DNA of 64,000 nt from the NCBI GenBank assembly GCA_000980705.1, contig LBCK01000001.1:806001-870000 (forward strand). The letters are read 5' to 3'. This DNA is from Ruminococcus sp. UNK.MGS-30. GTDB taxonomy: Bacteria; Bacillota; Clostridia; Oscillospirales; Ruminococcaceae. Shown piece by piece: positions 14,348-37,016 of this stretch. The notes beneath the pieces are model-generated. The model made no database searches and was not told the DNA's origin. It saw only the letters and a list, made by a program, of their open reading frames with translations. The translations under genes and the position numbers were made by a program. The first letter of the stretch is position 1; the number at the start of each line of letters is the position of its first letter.

Positions 14348-17300
14348 ATGAAAAAAAACTCGCACCGCTATGTGCGGAAAACCGCAGCCGGCGTGGTCGC
14401 TCTGTCCATGCTCTGCGCCGCTGCAATCCCTTCGGTTCTGGCTATGTCTGCCGGCGCAGCCAGCGCATCCGGCGACCTGAACGGTGACGGCTCTGTCACT
14501 GCCGCCGATGCGGCAATCCTGCAAACCTCACTCCTGGGCGGCACTGCCCTCACCGCAGAACAGTACGCCAACGCCGATGTCACCGGTGACGGCGCTGTGG
14601 ATGGTCTGGATCTGACCCGGCTCCGTCAGATGGCTGCGGTCGTTCCCGTAAGCGATGCCATCGCCATCCACCTCAGCGACAGCGGTATTACCGTAGAGGG
14701 CGACACCAAGGGCGTGACCGCCGTTTCCGGAAAGACTGTCACCATCTCTGCCTCCGGCAACTACACCGTAGACGGCTCGATCACAGACGGACAGATTCTG
14801 GTGAACATCCCGGATACCACAGCGGATTCTGACGCAGTTTCCCTGTATTTGCAGGATGTGACCATGACCTCTTCCAACGGTGCGCCCTGCATTCTGGGAC
14901 AGAGCGCAAAGAAACTGAAACTGACCTGCTCCGGTGAAAATACGCTGACCGATACTGCCGCCGAGGCAAACGCCGACACCAGCGGCGTGATCTACGGCGA
15001 CTGTGATATTACTGTTACCAAGAACAGTACCGGCACGCTGAACATCACCAGCAGTATGAATACGGCTATCCGTTCCAAGGACGACATCAAGCTCAACGGC
15101 GGCGCTGTCGTGATCAATACCGATGTGGACGACACTTCCGACGCCGATGCCATCCGGGCAAACAATACCCTGGAGGTAGACGGCGCATCGGTTTCCATTA
15201 CCTCTTCCGCAGACGGTCTGAAATCCTCCAAGGAAGACGTTTCCATCCTCTCTGGCAAGGTGAGCATCAAGGCAGGCAATGACGCAGTACAGGCGGCAAC
15301 TGCCCTCAATATCTCCGGCGGCACGGTGATCGCCAGCGGCGACCGTGGCTTTACCCTGGATGAAAACGGCACACTCGCCATTACCGGCGGCGATGTGCTG
15401 GCGACAGCCACCGACTACGCATTCGGCATGGATTCTTCCGGTGCGGCAGTGACTGTAGACACTTCCGGCTGCACCCAGGGCGTGGTACAGCTGGACTATG
15501 CGGCAGAGTGGAAAAAGAGCAACGCTGTGACTTTGAAGAAGGGCAGCGATACTGTCTTTGAAATGACGCCGAATAAGAAGTACACCTATGTGCTGGCAAG
15601 CGGCGCAAAGCTCTCCGGCACAGACAGCTATACCCTCTATACCGGCGGCACGCAGATGAACCACAGCGGTTCGGACAACGGCACATTTGCCATGACCGGT
15701 ACGCTGACCAAGTTCACCGATGTCAAGGAACTGACCGGCGGCAGCGAACTCCCGGATGATGACAGCGTTGTCACTGCCCTGGTCTACAGCGGCAGCAGCG
15801 TGACGGCAACCAACGCCTCCGGCGGCGTAGTCTCCAATCCGTCCAATCTGACCATCTCCGGCGCAAATGTCACCATTACGGCATCCAGTGAGATTTCTGT
15901 CAGCGGCGAAAGCACCAGCGGACAGCTTGCCGTCAACGTGGACAAAACGGCAGAGCCGGAGGGCAAGGTGGTGCTGAACCTGGAGGGACTGACCCTTTCC
16001 AACAGCAGCGCTGCGCCCATCTATGTTGAGGCGATCGGCGATGAGGTGCAGATCTCTGCCAAGAACGGCACGACCAACACCATTTCGGACGGCACATCCC
16101 ACACGGATACCTATGTGGACAGCGACGGCAATACCAACACCGTAAACGGGGCGATCTTCTCCCGTGACGATCTGAAGCTCAAGGGCAAGGGTACGCTGAT
16201 CGTCAACGGCAATACCGAGGACGGCATCGTCTGCAAGAACGATCTGAAGATCTGGAACGGCAATATTACTGTCAACGCCGCAGATGACGGCATCCGTGGC
16301 AATGATTCGGTACGCATCGGCGACCCGGATGCCGCCGATTACAGCAGCCTGTCTGTGACCGTAAACACCAATAACGGCAGCTCCGGCGGCGACGGCATCA
16401 AGACCAACTCCGACGAGGACGGCAAGGGCTATGTCACCATCAACGGCGGCACGGTCAACATCGACTCCTACGCAGACGGCATCCAGGCAGAGCAGACCTT
16501 TACCATGAATGGCGGCGAACTGAACATCACCACCTATCAGGGTTCGAACTTTACCGGCAGCGCATCCGGCGGCAACGGCGGCTGGGGCGGCGGCATGGGA
16601 GGCAATGACGGCAACTCCAACAAGACCGACATCAGCGCCAAGGGCATCAAGGCTGTGGGTGTGTACGATGAGGCAGGCACGACCTGGCAGAGCGGCGGCG
16701 ATCTGATCGTCAACGGCGGCACGATCACCATTGATTCTTCCGACGACAGTCTCCACTGCGGCGGCGATATGCAGCTGCTGGGCGGCAGCATGACACTGGC
16801 GACCGCAGATGACGGCGCACACAGTGATCATGCTCTGACCATCGGCAGCACCGGCGGCGATTATGATGCGCCTTATGTGAACATCACCAAGTCCTACGAG
16901 GGCATCGAAGGCGTGGATATCACCCAGAACAGCGGTACGGTTATGGTAACCTCCAGCGACGACGGCTATAATGCCGCAGGCGGCGCAGACAGTAGCGGCA
17001 ACAATAACAGCGGCGGCTGGGGTCAAGGCAGCTGGGGAGGACCCGGCGGCGGAAGTTCCAGTGACGGCAGCCAGACCATGACCTTTAACGGCGGCTATGC
17101 CTATGTGAATGCAGCCGGCGACGGTCTGGACTCCAACGGCAATATCTACTTCAACGGCGGCTATGTCTTTGTATCCCAGACCGGCGGCGGAAACGGCCCG
17201 CTGGACTGCGGCGACAGCAACAACTCCATCACCTATTCCGGCGGTACAGTCATTGCGGCAGGCAGCAGCGATATGTTTGAAACACCCAGCAGCTACTCCT

Positions 17301-30800: not shown

Positions 30801-30842
30801 TTTTCTATCTATCCTTATATAGAAAGAGACCAAATGTTCCGC

Positions 30843-30870
30843 ACCCCTTTTCCCGAATCTGCATACGTTA
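30843..30870 (+). promoter_or_regulatory. Candidate sigma-K-type promoter of dpaA
   Basis: AC (30843-30844), 17 bases, then CATACGTTA (30862-30870), which fits the AC-N16/17-CATA-NNN-TA form of mother-cell sigma-K promoters. It lies about 170 bases before dpaA, a sigma-K gene in Bacillus subtilis. The pattern match is seen; its use is inferred. Confidence 0.45.
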
Positions 30871-31044: not shown

Positions 31045-31848
31045 ATGACATCCGACAATGTGATTCTTGTGGCAGGCGGAGACCTGCGGCAGCAGTACGC
31101 CGCCCGGCGGCTGCGGCAAAAGACCGGGGCAGACGTATGGACGCTGGGACTTCCGGCGCAGTCCGGGCTGCACAGTGCGGAAACGCTGGAGGAAGTGCCG
31201 GCGTATGACGTTCTGGTGCTGCCTGTTCCGGCGAGTCCGGACGGAACAACTGTCCCGGCACCGTTCGGAAAGGCGGCGCTCCCGCTGGAGACGCTGGCGG
31301 CGCACGGCAAGCCCGGGGCGCTGGTGCTGGGCGGAGCGTGCGGCGGCATTCTTCCGTGGCTGGAATCCCGGGGACTGGCGGCGGCGGACTATCTCCGCCG
31401 GGAGGAACTCTGCCTGGCGAATGCCGTGCCGTCTGCGGAGGGCGCCATCCAGATCGCCATGGAAGAGACCGCCCGGACGCTGCACGGCACGGCAGCGCTG
31501 GTGATCGGCTACGGCAGGATCGGCATGGCGCTTGCGCCACGGCTGCGTGGCCTGGGGATGGATGTGACCGTCTGCGCCAGACGGTGCGAGACCCGGGCGC
31601 TGGCAGAGATGCAGGGATTCGCTGCCGTGCCGATGGAACAGCTCCCGGCTGCGGCAAAGGCAGCCCCGGTGATCTTCAACACCGTCCCGGCGCTGGTGCT
31701 GGATGAAACTGTGCTGAAAGGGCTGCCGCAGGAAACCTTGGTGATCGACCTGGCGTCCCGTCCCGGCGGCACGGACTTCGAGGCGGCAAAACGCCTGAGA
31801 ACACGTGTGGTGTGGGCATTGTCCCTTCCGCCGGAAATGCGGCGTTGA
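31045..31848 (+). CDS. dpaA: Dipicolinate synthase subunit A, 5' part (interrupted)
   Basis: As read, this frame encodes 267 residues and ends at TGA. DpaA (SpoVFA) with DpaB makes dipicolinic acid from dihydroxytetrahydrodipicolinate in the sporulating mother cell. A Rossmann motif is seen at VIGYGRIGMALAPRLRGLG near residue 153 and a late segment VVWALSLP typical of the family. After LP (codon ending 31830) the sequence turns into PEMRR-stop, whereas the family continues with a GKVAP-TAGEII tail. That tail is found at 36918-37016. Joined at the shared TCCG, the product is 294 residues, close to the Bacillus protein. GGAGGG precedes the ATG. Confidence 0.9.
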   Translation: MTSDNVILVAGGDLRQQYAARRLRQKTGADVWTLGLPAQSGLHSAETLEEVPAYDVLVLPVPASPDGTTVPAPFGKAALPLETLAAHGKPGALVLGGACGGILPWLESRGLAAADYLRREELCLANAVPSAEGAIQIAMEETARTLHGTAALVIGYGRIGMALAPRLRGLGMDVTVCARRCETRALAEMQGFAAVPMEQLPAAAKAAPVIFNTVPALVLDETVLKGLPQETLVIDLASRPGGTDFEAAKRLRTRVVWALSLPPEMRR

Positions 31849-31852
31849 CACA
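31809..31852. other. Left attachment site (attL) of the dpaA intervening element
   Basis: Core TCCG at 31827-31830. On the element side, seven bases after the core, stands TGCGGCGTTGACACA (31838-31852), the inverse of TGTGCCAACGCCGCA at the right end. The dpaA side supplies one half of attB. The crossover pair CC is at the centre of symmetry. Confidence 0.8.
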
Positions 31853-32000
31853 CGCTGGAAAGGGGTTCCAGGCGTCAAAAATGTTGAAAAGTCGGTGGAA
31901 AGACTGTTGAATTGAGAATTCCAGGCTGAAAATTGTGAAAAAGCGACAAAAACGGGGATAATATCCAGCAAAGAATCTAAAGAAAATTGAGTCAATGGGC

Positions 32001-32209
32001 TTGACACGGGCGCAATAATATGTTAAAATACGTATGTAAATTGTTTACGAGGGCTTTTTATAGGTGCTTGTAAGCATGAAGATTGCCGCAGCGTGCGTCT
32101 TTCGGGTATGGAAGCGGGATTGCCCGGATGCGAATGCGACTGTTGGGGTTGGATGAATCACATCCATGCAGACGGCAATGAAACTCAACTAAAAGAGAGG
32201 TAAAGAGAA
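32001..32209 (+). promoter_or_regulatory. Promoter and structured leader of the element cargo genes
   Basis: TTGACA (32001-32006), 17 bases, TAAAAT (32024-32029). The leader of about 174 bases has a long-range pair, GATTGCCG near 32080 with CGGCAAT near 32173, enclosing a G-rich region with smaller hairpins. AGAGAGGTAAAGAGAA precedes the ATG. The long leader suggests post-transcriptional control, but no known riboswitch was recognised. Confidence 0.55.
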
Positions 32210-34432
32210 ATGAAGAAGACATTCAACAGACTTCTTGCTGCAACTGTCGCAATTCCGGTTGCACTGGGTCAGATTCTTGCAATTTCTGCAAACGCTGCGG
32301 AAGCTCCGGCAGCAATGCAGGTCACCGCAGATCAGCTGCTGAAGGTAAACCCGGAGACTGGTTTCCCGACTGACGCTGAGGGCGATACCATTGAATACAC
32401 AGTAGAGTCCGACTGGAACACTGTACTGGGTAAGAAGGTAGAGTCTGCTGCAAACGGCAAGACCATCACCCTGAATGCTAAGGATCTGGTTGCTGGTTTC
32501 AACACCAACAACTACTACGCTGGACTGCTGAAGGACATCGTAAACGCTTCTGAAAATCCGACCGCTACGGTAGAAAACGGCGTTGTAACGATCTCCGGCA
32601 CTGCTGATCTGGAAAGCTATCTGGCTCCGCAGCTGAAGGACAAGCTGGCTGGCATGAGCGGCTATGAGAACGTAACTCTGGATACTTCCATCCTGAAGGG
32701 CGTTTCCTACACCGCAACCATCACCACTGATCTGGCAAACAGCAAGGAAGTAAAGGCTGACCTGAGCTTCACAGCCGGCGGCAAGACCTACACTGTAGAT
32801 ACTGCTACAGATTACATGAACGCTGTATATGACAGCCTGGAATCCCAGGTTGAGGCTGCTGTTGACCAGAAGGTCAAGGATCTGGCAAAGCAGTACGGCA
32901 TGACAGAAGATGAAGTTCGTGCAAACGCTGACTTCGACATCGCTGGCGACCTGGCAGCTCTGAAGGCTGAGACCGACAAGCTGGGCAGCAAGATCGACAC
33001 CGTGAAGAAGAAGTATGACGCTGCAAAGAACCTGTCTACTGCAACTAAGACATACGGCACTGCTGACGAGGCAATCGCAGCTGGTGTTAACTATGCTGTA
33101 AAGAAGGGCATCCAGTCCGCAGCAAACCTGCCGACAACCGTTAATGGTCTGGTTGGCAAGTACGGCGCACAGTTCGACAAGGCTGTTTCTTCTGTAAACA
33201 GCAGCCTGCAGGATGCCGGCGTAAATGTTGAGATCGCTGTAAAGTCCGGCGATGTTGCTGCTCTGCTGAACGGCGCGTCCAATGTAACTGTTGGCGCAGC
33301 TGCCGGCACTTACACCGCTACTTTCGAAGTTGCTGATGCTGAATACGATGCAGTTGTTGCATATGTAAAGGCTGAAGTTGCAAAGAGCGACAAGCTGGCA
33401 AACAAGGAAGTTGAAAGCGTAGAGACCACCAAGACTGTTACCGTTAAGGGCGCAGCTGCTGGCACTGCATCTTTCAATGTTGAGCGTGACGTTGTTGTTG
33501 TTCTGAAGGATAAGGAAACCACAACTTCCACTTCTGAAACAACTGATACTACAGAGACCACTGTAACAACTGCAACTGGCTCTGACACAGATACCAACAC
33601 GCAGACTACTGTAACAACTGTATCTGGCTCTGAAACAAACACTGAGACGAATACTGAGACCAACACCAATACCAATACAGAAACTAACACTGAGACCAAC
33701 ACAGAAACCAATACTGAAACCAATACTGAAACCAATACTGAGACCAACACAGAAACCAATACCGAAACTGGAACCGGCACTGGCACAGGTACAACCGAGA
33801 CTCTGCCGACTGGCGTTTCTTCTGTAGAGGTTAAGCTGGTTGACGCTGAGACCGCTGAGGACATCTACCTGTCCAACGAAGAGTCCTTCGACGTTGCTGG
33901 TTTGATCGAGTCCGTAACTCTGCACCTGGAAGACGGTACTGACTATCAGGTACAGGATCCGGCAACTGCAATTGACTTTGCAATGACTCCGGCTGAGGCT
34001 TATGCAACTGTTGACCAGAAGGCTGGCGCAGGCAAGGTTTACTTCAACGGCGAAGTTGGTCTGAAGTACAAGGGTGAAGAAGATCTGACCATCAGCGAAA
34101 CCGTTAAGGTTGCTGTAGCTCTGAAGGGCGATACAAACCTGGATGGTAAGGTAACAAGTACTGACCTGTACGACACCATGCTGTACATCGCACTGAAGGG
34201 TGCTGGTGAGAAGGAATACTTCGACACCGTAAAGAATGGCACTGCACTGGAGACCAAGCTGGCTTACCTGGCATCTGATATTGATACCGAGTCCAAGGCT
34301 GGCGCAAACACAGACGATGCTAAGCTGGATTCCACCGATATGCTGTACACTCAGGTATACCAGGCATACAACGGTGCTGGTGAACACATCGACTGGGCAG
34401 AGGCTCTGAAGATCGCTAACGGCGGTAAGTAA
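32210..34432 (+). CDS. Secreted dockerin-bearing surface protein (element cargo)
   Basis: 740 residues: signal peptide (cut near SANAAEA), an unrecognised region of about 450 residues with alternating beta and helical parts, a Thr/Glu/Asn linker with many NTET repeats (about 475-520), a second beta domain (about 530-635), then a C-terminal dockerin-like pair of calcium loops (DTNLDGKVTSTDL near residue 641, and a diverged second loop near DDAKLDSTDML with a long insert between). Codons GCT, GTT, GTA and ACT are far more frequent than in neighbouring genes, a mark of high expression. The order, a dockerin protein followed by a single-cohesin wall-anchored protein, recalls cttA-scaE of R. flavefaciens, but homology is not shown. 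Confidence 0.75.
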   Translation: MKKTFNRLLAATVAIPVALGQILAISANAAEAPAAMQVTADQLLKVNPETGFPTDAEGDTIEYTVESDWNTVLGKKVESAANGKTITLNAKDLVAGFNTNNYYAGLLKDIVNASENPTATVENGVVTISGTADLESYLAPQLKDKLAGMSGYENVTLDTSILKGVSYTATITTDLANSKEVKADLSFTAGGKTYTVDTATDYMNAVYDSLESQVEAAVDQKVKDLAKQYGMTEDEVRANADFDIAGDLAALKAETDKLGSKIDTVKKKYDAAKNLSTATKTYGTADEAIAAGVNYAVKKGIQSAANLPTTVNGLVGKYGAQFDKAVSSVNSSLQDAGVNVEIAVKSGDVAALLNGASNVTVGAAAGTYTATFEVADAEYDAVVAYVKAEVAKSDKLANKEVESVETTKTVTVKGAAAGTASFNVERDVVVVLKDKETTTSTSETTDTTETTVTTATGSDTDTNTQTTVTTVSGSETNTETNTETNTNTNTETNTETNTETNTETNTETNTETNTETNTETGTGTGTGTTETLPTGVSSVEVKLVDAETAEDIYLSNEESFDVAGLIESVTLHLEDGTDYQVQDPATAIDFAMTPAEAYATVDQKAGAGKVYFNGEVGLKYKGEEDLTISETVKVAVALKGDTNLDGKVTSTDLYDTMLYIALKGAGEKEYFDTVKNGTALETKLAYLASDIDTESKAGANTDDAKLDSTDMLYTQVYQAYNGAGEHIDWAEALKIANGGK

Positions 34433-34545
34433 GAATCTCTTTTCCCGCAACTCTTATTTAAGCTTGTATATGTTGGTGGTGTGAGGTGCATATCACACCG
34501 CTGATATATCACATATAATTTTATTCTTGAAAGGAAATAGAAACA

Positions 34546-35280
34546 ATGAAGACTACATTGAAAAAGACAATGGCAGCTCTTTCTGCTGCTGCTGTTGTAG
34601 CTGCATCCGCTGCTGTTATGGCTATTCCGACAAGTGCTGCAGGTATGTCCCTGACTATCGGTAGTGCTACTATGACTCTGGCTGAACTGAAGGCTGCTGA
34701 TTACAAGGTAACTCTGCCGATCGGTTCTACCGCTGAATTCAACAGCGTAGGCGTAGGCGTTACCCTGGGTGAAGGCCTGTCCTATGTTGAAGATGGTATG
34801 GAAACAACTGCTAAGGGCGCATCTGGCCTGGCAGTAGAGAGCAACGGCTTCGTATTCATGCCGTTCAGCTATGCAAGCGTTCCGCTTAAGACCCTGAAGC
34901 CGGGTCAGTTCGCTCAGATCACCGTTAAGGTAACTGACGCAGCTAAGGCTGGCGATGTATTCAACCTGACCATTGCTGGTAAGGATTCTGACGGTACTGT
35001 TATGGAATACAAGAACGGTGTAACCGGTGAAACTGGTGAGGCTGGTTCTGGCGCAGGCACCATCACTATCGTTGCAGATGCAACCGATGCTCCGACTGAA
35101 GCTCCGACAACTGCTCCGGTAGCAACTGGCACAACTGCTGCTACTACAACCACTAAGAAGGCTGCTGCTGCTAAGTCCACTTCTTCTCCGAAGACTGGCG
35201 ACGCTCTGCCGGTAGCTGGCGTAGCTGTAGCTGTAGCTGTAATCGGTGGCGTAGCACTGGTAGCTAAGAAGAGAAAGTAA
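34546..35280 (+). CDS. Cell-wall-anchored protein with one cohesin-like module (element cargo)
   Basis: 244 residues: signal peptide (to about PTSAA), one cohesin-like beta-sandwich (about residues 34-182; opening LTIGSATMTLAELKAADYKV, closing strand with AKAGDVFNLTI and GTITIV), an Ala/Thr linker, and a sorting signal SPKTGD (residues 214-219) with a hydrophobic span and KKRK tail. It should be attached to peptidoglycan by a sortase and present one docking module. Its opening signature matches modules of the proteins at 55.7 and 62.3 kb. AAAGGAAATAG precedes the ATG. Codon use matches its upstream neighbour. Confidence 0.8.
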   Translation: MKTTLKKTMAALSAAAVVAASAAVMAIPTSAAGMSLTIGSATMTLAELKAADYKVTLPIGSTAEFNSVGVGVTLGEGLSYVEDGMETTAKGASGLAVESNGFVFMPFSYASVPLKTLKPGQFAQITVKVTDAAKAGDVFNLTIAGKDSDGTVMEYKNGVTGETGEAGSGAGTITIVADATDAPTEAPTTAPVATGTTAATTTTKKAAAAKSTSSPKTGDALPVAGVAVAVAVIGGVALVAKKRK

Positions 35281-35338
35281 GCTTTCGCTGCGATAGCAGC
35301 AAATAGCGCAACTGAATCTTAACGCATTTTATGCGTGA

Positions 35339-35378
35339 AAAGAGGGCATCTCCTTCGGGAGGTGTCCTCTTTGTTTTT
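35339..35378 (+). terminator. Terminator of the element cargo genes
   Basis: AAGAGGGCATCTCC, a TTCG loop and GGAGGTGTCCTCTT form a long stem followed by TTTGTTTTTT. It separates cargo transcription from the recombinase gene. Confidence 0.9.
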
Positions 35379-35412
35379 TCCGGCGCATAGAGTATAGCGA
35401 GGTGATAGCATC

Positions 35413-36888
35413 ATGATCGCAATTTATGCCCGTCAGTCGGTGGAGCGCCCCGATTCCATTTCTATTGCCATGCAGGTGGAACACTGCCGCCGCATCTGTC
35501 CTGCCGAGGCGGAGGTGCGTGTGTTTACTGACCGGGGCTTTACCGGAACCAACACCCACCGCCCGGCGTTCCGGGAAATGCTGGAGGCGGTGGAACAGGG
35601 CGAAGTGGAAAGCGTCTATGTGTATAAGCTGGATCGGATTTCCCGTTCCCTCTGCGACTTTGCCGCAATGATGCAGACGTTCCGCCGCCGGAATGTGACG
35701 CTCCACTCCGTCCGGGAGAGTTTCGACACACGGACGGAGATCGGTGGAATGCTGCTGAATCTGCTGATGATGTTTGCGGAGCTGGAGCAGAAAACCATCG
35801 CCGGTAGAGTCCGGGACAATTACTACGCCAGAGCCGCCCAGCAGCTGGCACTGGGCGGAACGCCGCCGTATGGATACACCGGGAAAAACGTCCGCATCTC
35901 GAACCACACCGCCACTATTCTGGAAGTTCAGCCCGACGAGGCGGCGCAGGTGCAGGCGTTTTATACGGGCTACGGCATCGCCGGGCAGAACGTGGAACAG
36001 CTGGTGCAGGCGGCAAACCGTTCCGGCAGCCGCACCCGAAACGGGGCGAACTGGTCGAACAGCGCCGTTTTGCGTATCCTGCGCAGCCCGGTGTATGTCC
36101 GGGGCGACCTCCGGAGCGCTGTCTTTTTGCAGGAACAGGGCGTGGAACTGACCCATCCGCTGGAACAGTACTGCCAGGGCAACGGCTACCTGGTCTACGG
36201 CAGTCCAGCCGCACGCCACGGCGCAAAGCTGACCCGGCTGCAGGGAGAACATATGGCGGCAGGACTTCACCCCGGCATCGTGGACAGCGACCTGTGGCTG
36301 AGCGTCCAGGAACGGCTGGCGGCTCGTGGCGGCTGTACCAACCGTGGCACAGGTCATCGCTCCTGGCTCCAGGGGCTGGCGGTTTGCGGTCTCTGCGGCG
36401 CACATTGCTACGCCCGAAACAACGGCAAGGGCGCAGCGTATACCTATTTCGTCTGCCGGGGCAAGCGCCAGGGCATCTGTCCCGGCATCCCCGGTCTGCG
36501 CACCCAGTGGGTGGAGGACGCCGTTTCGCCCATTCTGGCACAGCAGGCAGAACAGCTTTTGCCCTATGCGGAGACAACGCCCCAGCTCGACCCGGCGGCG
36601 GTGGCGCTGGAGGAACTGGAACAGCGGATGCGCTGCCTGGCGGCGGAATTGTCCCAGCCCACGGCGGCGGCAGATTTTCTCCGGGAAGAGCTGAACCGCC
36701 TGGCACAGGAGCGCCGGGAACTGGAACAGCAGCTGCGCCGGGAATCGACCGGACGAACGGAAACACCTGCCGGCAGCTGGGCGGCGTGGTGGGAGACTGC
36801 CAGGCTGGAACAGCGCAGACAGGCGGCGGCATTGCTGCTCCGGGAGGTGCGGCTCTATCCCGACCACGGCGAGGCGGTTTTGCACTGA
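35413..36888 (+). CDS. Large serine recombinase of the dpaA element
   Basis: 491 residues. The catalytic domain starts IAIYARQS with Ser9 as nucleophile; the conserved arginines are in YKLDRISRSL and in the RVRDNYYARAAQ helix. A recombinase DNA-binding domain follows (GGTPPYGYTG onward), then a zinc ribbon with C325, C328, C348 and C356, and a coiled-coil tail rich in E, L and R. Length and order match SpoIVCA/SprA-type recombinases. GAGGTGAT precedes the ATG. The gene ends 26 bases from the right attachment core, as is usual for self-acting elements. The expected act is excision that restores dpaA. No partner directionality factor was identified. Confidence 0.93.
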   Translation: MIAIYARQSVERPDSISIAMQVEHCRRICPAEAEVRVFTDRGFTGTNTHRPAFREMLEAVEQGEVESVYVYKLDRISRSLCDFAAMMQTFRRRNVTLHSVRESFDTRTEIGGMLLNLLMMFAELEQKTIAGRVRDNYYARAAQQLALGGTPPYGYTGKNVRISNHTATILEVQPDEAAQVQAFYTGYGIAGQNVEQLVQAANRSGSRTRNGANWSNSAVLRILRSPVYVRGDLRSAVFLQEQGVELTHPLEQYCQGNGYLVYGSPAARHGAKLTRLQGEHMAAGLHPGIVDSDLWLSVQERLAARGGCTNRGTGHRSWLQGLAVCGLCGAHCYARNNGKGAAYTYFVCRGKRQGICPGIPGLRTQWVEDAVSPILAQQAEQLLPYAETTPQLDPAAVALEELEQRMRCLAAELSQPTAAADFLREELNRLAQERRELEQQLRRESTGRTETPAGSWAAWWETARLEQRRQAAALLLREVRLYPDHGEAVLH

Positions 36889-36891
36889 AAA

Positions 36892-36935
36892 TGTGCCAAC
36901 GCCGCACCGCCGCTCCGGGAAAGGTTGCACCCATG
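36892..36935. other. Right attachment site (attR) of the dpaA element
   Basis: TGTGCCAACGCCGCA (36892-36906), seven bases, core TCCG (36914-36917), then the continuation of dpaA. Symmetric with the left site about the CC of the core. Confidence 0.8.
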
Positions 36936-37016
36936 ACCGCCGGGGAGATCATCGCAGACACCATTTGCAACATTCTCGAAGAGAGGAGACTCGCCCATGA
37001 ACGACTTGACAGGTGA
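36918..37016 (+). CDS. dpaA: Dipicolinate synthase subunit A, 3' part (separated exon-like end)
   Basis: 32 codons plus stop, in frame with the 5' part if recombination occurs within TCCG. The residues read GKVAPMTAGEIIADTICNIL and then EERRLAHERLDR, the conserved C-terminal tail of DpaA. There is no start codon with a ribosome site of its own, so it is expressed only after joining. It overlaps the dpaB start by 20 bases, the usual tight dpaA-dpaB arrangement. Confidence 0.9.
   Translation, partial: GKVAPMTAGEIIADTICNILEERRLAHERLDR

Follow-up and report, generated by a model that had tools for sequence, protein, structure and literature searches.

The 64,000-nucleotide stretch of Ruminococcus sp. 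UNK.MGS-30 analysed here (contig LBCK01000001.1; hereafter the window) carries a copy of dpaA, a gene needed for dipicolinic acid, the protective compound of the spore, that is split by an intervening element of 5,087 base pairs (bp). The sequence evidence favours, with a probability of roughly 0.8, a model in which this element is cut out precisely across a CC pair in the sporulating mother cell, rebuilding a DpaA of 294 residues just as sigma-K is predicted to activate the gene. In all likelihood it is a conserved intervening element of a developmental kind, and the case for function can be made because the stranded end of the gene appears to be under selection, the attachment (att) sites are symmetrical and the promoters are conserved.

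The split gene and its junction

The dpaA frame that opens at position 31045 closes early at 31848, after 267 residues, and the missing C-terminus of 32 codons sits 5,087 bp downstream, overlapping the start of dpaB (Table 1), just as the original prediction had described. That prediction placed the join exactly at two copies of TCCG spaced by 5,087 bp; the join itself holds, and gives in frame a 294-residue protein ending WALSLPGKVAPMTAGEIIADTICNILEERRLAHERLDR, with the predicted rejoined DNA at the junction reading CTTCCGGGA and the locus shortened by 5,087 bp. However, TCCG proves to be only a local overlap, and CC alone is invariant in 15 elements. In comparison with DpaA families, the C-terminus of the joined protein aligns with DpaA. 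Against NCBIfam NF006162 the joined protein covers positions 4-293 of the 297 in the profile and scores 257.9 bits, missing the curated cut-off of 261 by 3 bits. It gains 40 bits over the truncated form (217-218 bits over profile positions 4-268), and the uninterrupted relatives scanned (P0011, P0043 and P0112) score 265, 268 and 297.

The identity of the tail as DpaA is backed both by alignment and by selection specific to the joined frame. The stretch LPGKVAPMTAG is common to the window tail and the uninterrupted relative P0011, whose alignment with two solved DpaA chains, 2rir and 3d4o, extends through this C-terminal stretch. Over the first 25 tail codons, ending before or at the dpaB start, the ratio of nonsynonymous to synonymous change (pN/pS) among 15 tails is 0.354 in the joined frame versus 1.15 and 1.51 in the other frames, and among six close tails, the window's included, it is 0.229 versus 1.36 and 1.70, all of these values being pooled over all pairs, hence not independent, with synonymous sites near saturation. 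Judged by these ratios, the stranded tail is evolving as protein only in the joined frame.

Conservation of the split in relatives

In a species-wide scan with one genome per species, in which the best 80 of 282 confirmed dpaA loci were kept, 78 of these 80 were uninterrupted and two (L001 and L002, from metagenome-assembled genomes of uncultured Ruminococcus sp.) had a recombinase between the dpaA halves. The genus of these two, to which the window can be assigned by inference from its DpaA (75% identity to that of genome G003), was taken as the nearest genus, and dpaA was found in all 16 of the genomes examined from it. The observation made in the window is correct to the base, and is more than chance, since 15 of these 16 genomes have dpaA split at the same codon. 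The split lies on one contig in 11 (G001, G002, G003, G005, G007, G008, G010, G012, G013, G014 and G016); in three others (G004, G006 and G009) the halves lie on two contigs with the recombinase adjoining dpaB, and G015 has the left part of dpaA only, followed by the contig end. An uninterrupted gene, which the original prediction had proposed to look for, is present in G011 (L139), where the best match to the window recombinase is weak (2.9e-15), and further uninterrupted DpaA proteins are P0011, P0035, P0041 and P0043. The 12 elements that are whole on one contig, the window's included, measure 4,718-6,186 bp, and the reading frame is kept across the junction in all 15 elements of which both ends are present, those of the window and of 14 genomes. 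Matches to spoIVA were found in 14 of the 16 genus genomes (13 over the cut-off) and to spoVAD likewise in 14 (two over the cut-off); G003 and G008, unlike the other 14, have no spoVAD match.

Several elements and junctions show peculiarities of their own. In G003 (L133:4762-6237) the recombinase gene is inverted inside the element, and both att ends keep their orientation, while G001 (L135:8934-9993) has about 1 kilobase (kb) extra between the recombinase and the right end, with a 271-residue antisense frame. The broken recombinase of G008 is more likely an assembly error, as its dpaB, spoIVA and cotJC are also broken. A cohesin-like match beside the G011 dpaA was rejected as an element remnant, since it covers residues 166-244, mostly the sorting signal. 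One uninterrupted DpaA lineage (P0016 and P0027) has the junction LALALPAKVAP, not WALSLPGKVAP, perhaps through drift after element loss.

In a tree of 43 DpaA proteins (the window, the 14 split genomes, G011, G015, 17 of 120 listed proteins and nine of the 78 uninterrupted loci), from which the tail was left out and in which G009 has a long branch and 12 forks are open, the split needs seven changes, with the starred branches forcing four, and uninterrupted DpaA is nested among split forms in about five places. Our reading of this tree is that the history would comprise one old gain and several precise losses, although repeated gain at one site is possible. The recombinase and DpaA trees have 8 of 11 splits in common (Mantel r 0.96), and those of the neighbouring genes dpaA and dpaB have 5 of 11 (r 0.97); in this comparison of 14 sequences, from which G008 was left out for its broken frames, each r was reached in 0 of 5,000 permutations. 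On these trees, vertical inheritance of the element would be the best reading.

Attachment sites and promoters

When the predicted circle sequence was laid out round the core for 15 elements (window and 14 genomes), CC was the sole part of the core that did not vary. The inverted-repeat flanks are centred exactly on this pair, with 200 matched positions at zero offset versus 65-114 at 12 other offsets, and the arms match their own partner better than the partners of other species (249 matches, with 0 of 20,000 permutations as high), both statistics including a G005 right end placed 10 bp off. The arms vary by species but stay paired: the window has GCCGCA/TGCGGC, for instance, and G016 has ACCACA/TGTGGT. 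Serine recombinases have been described as using a symmetric attP that has a dinucleotide at its centre (PMC5595907).

The predicted sigma-K promoter of dpaA is the sole perfect match of its type in the 64-kb window. The consensus used is that of B. subtilis, KCACM and GCATANNNTA, from a source that itself lists spoVFA (dpaA) under sigma-K (PMC3416734), and the gap between -35 and -10 is given as 14-16 (PMC517825). In the regions upstream of dpaA from the window and the 16 genomes, 17 in all, the best match is perfect in four and has one mismatch in five, two in seven and three in one (G008). The pattern AC-N17-CATANNNTR precedes dpaA in 15 of the 17 (shuffles: mean 0.08, maximum 2) and a slightly relaxed form does so in 16 (mean 0.57, maximum 4); a form ending in TA is found in only seven (mean 0.12, maximum 2). 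The presence of sigK is not claimed here, since TIGR02846 cannot separate sigma-K from other sigma factors and gave no match over the cut-off. Before the recombinase gene, [GT]CATANNNT is found in 12 of 15 elements (window and 14 genomes; shuffles: mean 0.44, maximum 3), and that this -10-like motif serves as a sigma-E or sigma-K element is a guess, because no clear -35 accompanies it.

Recombinase and cargo genes

The element has its own large serine recombinase, as originally claimed, with resolvase, recombinase and zinc-ribbon domains in a single gene and the N-terminal Ser whose role in serine recombinases is well known. R7, S9 and Cys 325, 328, 348 and 356 are invariant in all 14 sequences aligned, the window's included and the broken G008 copy left out. 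Its best NCBIfam match is XisF (NF041201), at 111.9 bits far under the cut-off of 375; the fdxN element of heterocyst-forming cyanobacteria, to which XisF belongs, is excised in a terminal cell. The recombinase cluster nearest to the window holds 508 member sequences, and the wider family has relatives at 30-39% identity (at E up to 1e-40, matches in 66 of 247 genomes, the genus included), those in other genera being in G032, G194, G132, G146, G259 and others (L155-L180). Most of the conserved short frames of the element (30-149 residues) are antisense to the big genes. Two sets of short sense frames at the left end (G001/G002/G003/G008 and G005/G010/G012/G013) were not counted as a directionality factor, since what is conserved there is the DNA round the cargo promoter and the starts and frames differ, although they may yet include one. 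A directionality factor may lie elsewhere than in the element.

Three genes only are found in the element, and no phage gene was recognised among them. A Pfam scan of the window's two cargo proteins gave no family over the cut-off; CttA_N reached 17.9-24.4 bits in five relatives scanned (cut-off 25) and had no match in the window's cargo 1, and Dockerin_1 matched one cargo 1 sequence weakly (E 4.4). A profile of cargo 1 (A2, six orthologues) matches the CttA X-module/dockerin chain 4iu2_B (E 2.4e-13), and one of cargo 2 (A1, seven orthologues) matches the cohesin 10uv (E 1.8e-17), ScaE 2zf9 (E 4.1e-7) and the ScaE chain of 4iu2. The predicted structure of cargo 2 has a predicted local distance difference test (pLDDT) score of 75-94 over residues 31-180 and low values elsewhere, and its fold matches cohesins including 2zf9 (E 6e-7; template-modelling score 0.4-0.45 by query length). 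Each of the 11 elements that lie on one contig in relatives has matches to both cargo genes. Sortase anchors ScaE, to which CttA binds via its dockerin (PMC5301203), and drawing on this binding together with the profile and fold matches, we suggest that the cargo probably comprises an adhesion protein and a wall anchor for it. The pair would resemble CttA and ScaE of R. flavefaciens in combining an X-module/dockerin protein with a sortase-anchored cohesin; however, theirs are within the sca locus (PMC5301203), whereas these lie inside a predicted excisable element.

The DNA round the cargo promoter (window:31930-32065) is strongly conserved between species with no common protein frame. The conserved left-end blocks are TGTGAAAAAGC, CAAAAA, TTGACA...TTAAAAT and then GTAAATTGTT, with a CATGCACCGT block next in the leader of G005, G007, G010, G012, G013 and G014. 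This conserved DNA may be a regulator binding site or a leader RNA.

Table 1. Features of the split dpaA locus (window positions) and of cotJC pieces in relatives
Feature	Position	Strand	Basis or remark
Predicted sigma-K promoter of dpaA, GCACC-N15-GCATACGTTA	30841..30870	+	0 mismatches to KCACM-N15-GCATANNNTA
dpaA 5' part	31045..31830	+	261 codons and junction Pro codon; PF16924 DpaA_N, NF006162
attL core TCCG	31827..31830	+	CC invariant in 15 elements
Predicted intervening element, 5,087 bp	31828..36914	.	dpaA ends and TCCG spacing
attP inverted repeat, left arm TGCGGCGTTGACACA	31838..31852	+	
Predicted sigma-A-type cargo promoter, TTGACA-N17-TAAAAT	32001..32029	+	12 of 12 elements
Cargo 1, 740 residues, C-terminal X-module/dockerin-like region (CttA-like)	32210..34432	+	KGDTNLDG and SDIDTESKAG repeats
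Cargo 2, 244-residue cohesin, C-terminal SPKTGD sorting signal (ScaE-like)	34546..35280	+	Profile, predicted fold, alignment
Sigma-E/K-like -10, GCATAGAGTA	35385..35394	+	Just before recombinase ribosome site
Large serine recombinase, 491 residues	35413..36888	+	PF00239, PF07508, PF13408
attP inverted repeat, right arm TGTGCCAACGCCGCA	36892..36906	+	
attR core TCCG	36914..36917	+	
dpaA 3' part	36915..37016	+	Junction Pro codon, 32 codons, stop; pN/pS 0.354 in joined frame
dpaB, 193 residues	36997..37578	+	NF006161, 256 bits, over cut-off of 156
cotJC pieces	L197:1943-2386 and 15675-15902 (G001); L198, L199 (G011); L200, L201 (G006); L202, L203, L212 (G014)		
cotJC pieces, further	L204, L205 (G013); L210 (G005); L209 (G002); L211 (G008); L208 (G016)		

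Split cotJC genes in the same genus

Another split gene in this genus is a spore-coat gene of the Mn-catalase type that we take to be cotJC, with breaks near three different sites (Table 1). At the site after DLAA, both halves are present in G001, G006, G011 and G014 and share a GCAGA, at which one half ends and the other begins, and the 3' half only is present in G005 and G013. The site before GGPDGE is split in G002, G008 and G013, and that near TEELAH in G014 and G016; G014 is split twice. Uninterrupted copies occur in G003 and G012, and no match was found in G004 and G015. Serine recombinases adjoin many of the pieces; for example, a 503-residue recombinase of G002 (L209:803-2311), 34% identical to that in dpaA, ends beside a cotJC fragment, which also stops short at its C-terminus.

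Discussion

These results support the interpretation that the original prediction gave to the dpaA element and allow a sequence of events to be proposed. Of the grounds on which that prediction would have fallen, neither of the two open to computation holds, because uninterrupted relatives exist and the tail aligns as DpaA. In growing cells the element would be in place, with its two adhesion genes read from the sigma-A-type promoter. The recombinase gene would be read by mother-cell RNA polymerase early in sporulation, and attL and attR would recombine, releasing a 5,087-bp circle. Sigma-K would then read the restored dpaA together with dpaB, and dipicolinic acid would be made, while the forespore genome, the sole one inherited, would keep the element.

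Several observations weigh against this model. No excised form was seen among cluster representatives: the 267-residue form at 98% identity represents 314 member sequences, another representative at 75% (P0006) represents 1,125, and among the first 50 relatives listed none of those with at least 65% identity has the tail. A search of viral contigs gave no circle or empty-site junction and no recombinase or cohesin gene from the element. No directionality factor was recognised in the 12 elements examined, the recombinase and DpaB trees agree in only 6 of 11 splits (r 0.90, again reached in 0 of 5,000 permutations), and the -10 motif ahead of the recombinase lacks a convincing -35 and lies very near the ribosome site. 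In addition, the matches to sporulation genes come from the genomes of the 16 relatives and not from the window's own genome. The lack of excised copies fits excision confined to rare, dying mother cells, and fits equally well no excision at all.

The same lack bears on the alternatives to programmed excision. Large serine recombinases commonly mobilise DNA, and the element could leave and return at random, as in phase variation, or be a small mobile element with a preference for dpaA, in either case free of developmental control. The catalogue of recombinases in PMC10083194 agrees with such mobility, as would the uninterrupted dpaA of several lineages, by which repeated gain is possible, and the failure to recognise a directionality factor. 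However, the recombinase and DpaA trees agree and a sigma-K-type promoter is retained before dpaA; the lack of a joined form among representatives near the window also speaks, weakly, against frequent excision in growing cells, weakly because only cluster representatives were examined and a joined member could hide behind one. We regard this alternative as unlikely. That dpaA is simply dead, broken by an integrated element with its tail a remnant kept by its position before dpaB, would likewise account for the missing excised form, and some Clostridia produce dipicolinic acid without DpaA. Yet both halves are open and in frame in every element with both ends, the 25 tail codons appear to evolve as protein in the joined frame only, the promoter pattern is retained in 15 of 17 upstream regions and the recombinase residues are retained in all 14 aligned sequences, which makes a dead gene very unlikely.

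It is also conceivable that DpaA works as two separately made polypeptides, with excision unnecessary, as eight of the 15 elements, the window's included, have an ATG in the tail frame eight codons (22 in one) before the junction. However, six of the 15 lack any ATG, GTG or TTG in the interval from the last in-frame stop to the junction, and in a seventh (G002) the only such codons there are GTG and TTG; the window's ATG has no apparent ribosome site before it and overlaps the outer edge of the att arm, and a C-terminal peptide of about 40 residues would need to complete the fold in trans. Such an arrangement is highly improbable. An assembly artefact joining unrelated DNA might be suspected from the four relatives that break into contigs inside the element (G004, G006, G009 and G015), but this is already refuted by the relatives, as the whole arrangement lies on one contig in 11 of them and the nearest recombinase cluster is so large.

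By its structure, the predicted element belongs among the sporulation gene-intervening elements: it lies within a sporulation gene whose halves rejoin in frame, carries its own recombinase, has a short core with inverted repeats and is missing from an otherwise uninterrupted gene in relatives. It lacks the phage genes of the prophage type; however, phage genes are not required for such elements, because gin has none (PMC5595907). Among known elements, vfbin comes nearest; it lies in spoVFB (dpaB) of Bacillus weihenstephanensis KBAB4, the gene for the partner subunit of the same enzyme. This element is excised in sporulation and its recombinase is expressed in sporulation (PMC4191935, PMC10747680, PMC5595907), but it concerns the other subunit and another bacterial class, and carries phage-related genes (PMC4191935). 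The comparison originally drawn with skin and SP-beta also holds. As predicted here, skin in sigK of B. subtilis and C. difficile combines a large serine recombinase, in-frame restoration and a mother-cell gene, but it is prophage-like, and in C. difficile its timing comes from a separate directionality factor under sigma-E and SpoIIID (PMC5025042), whereas the dpaA element packs three genes into 5 kb, among which we recognised no factor of this kind. The gin element in gerE of B. cereus ATCC10987 is likewise a non-phage element in a spore gene, although one with 31 genes and three recombinases that only certain strains of B. cereus and B. toyonensis carry (PMC5595907), unlike the single recombinase and two adhesion-type genes found here in 15 of 16 genomes of a genus. 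Similarly, yin of C. botulinum V73 has a recombinase, lies in a spore gene (yabG) and is excised in a temporal manner, but is a prophage described in one strain (PMC10747680). The fdxN element, whose XisF is the best if distant match of the recombinase, is excised in a terminal cell (PMC5025042), and further elements are vrin in spoVR and SP-beta in spsM (PMC4191935). By analogy, that the dpaA element works like skin, vfbin and gin would be the best reading. Among the papers listed, judged by titles and the opening parts of abstracts and with subscription papers outside the scope, none described an element within dpaA or cotJC or any such elements in Ruminococcus, and the terms spoVF, dipicolin, interrupt and sigK are absent from the R. 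bromii sporulation paper PMC5814915.

A wider proposal, on which we are evenly divided, is that late spore genes of this genus are split in the genome that is passed on and are made whole in the doomed mother cell through programmed excision, dpaA via a domesticated three-gene element that bears the cell's own adhesion genes instead of phage DNA, and cotJC via further recombinase elements near three sites. The mother cell would so drop its adhesion genes as dipicolinic acid synthesis starts, much like heterocysts deleting elements from nitrogen-fixation genes. If the model of programmed excision is true, dpaA would appear short to annotation pipelines, and the system would offer a compact recombinase whose sites are predicted at single-base precision. 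The element would also be a minimal one, consisting of a recombinase, a pair of att sites and two genes of use to the cell. Developmental gene splitting would then be a fixed trait of a gut-bacterial genus and not of scattered strains, which makes testable why a lineage would pass on its genome with a spore gene that is broken, with the lineages that lost the element as natural controls.

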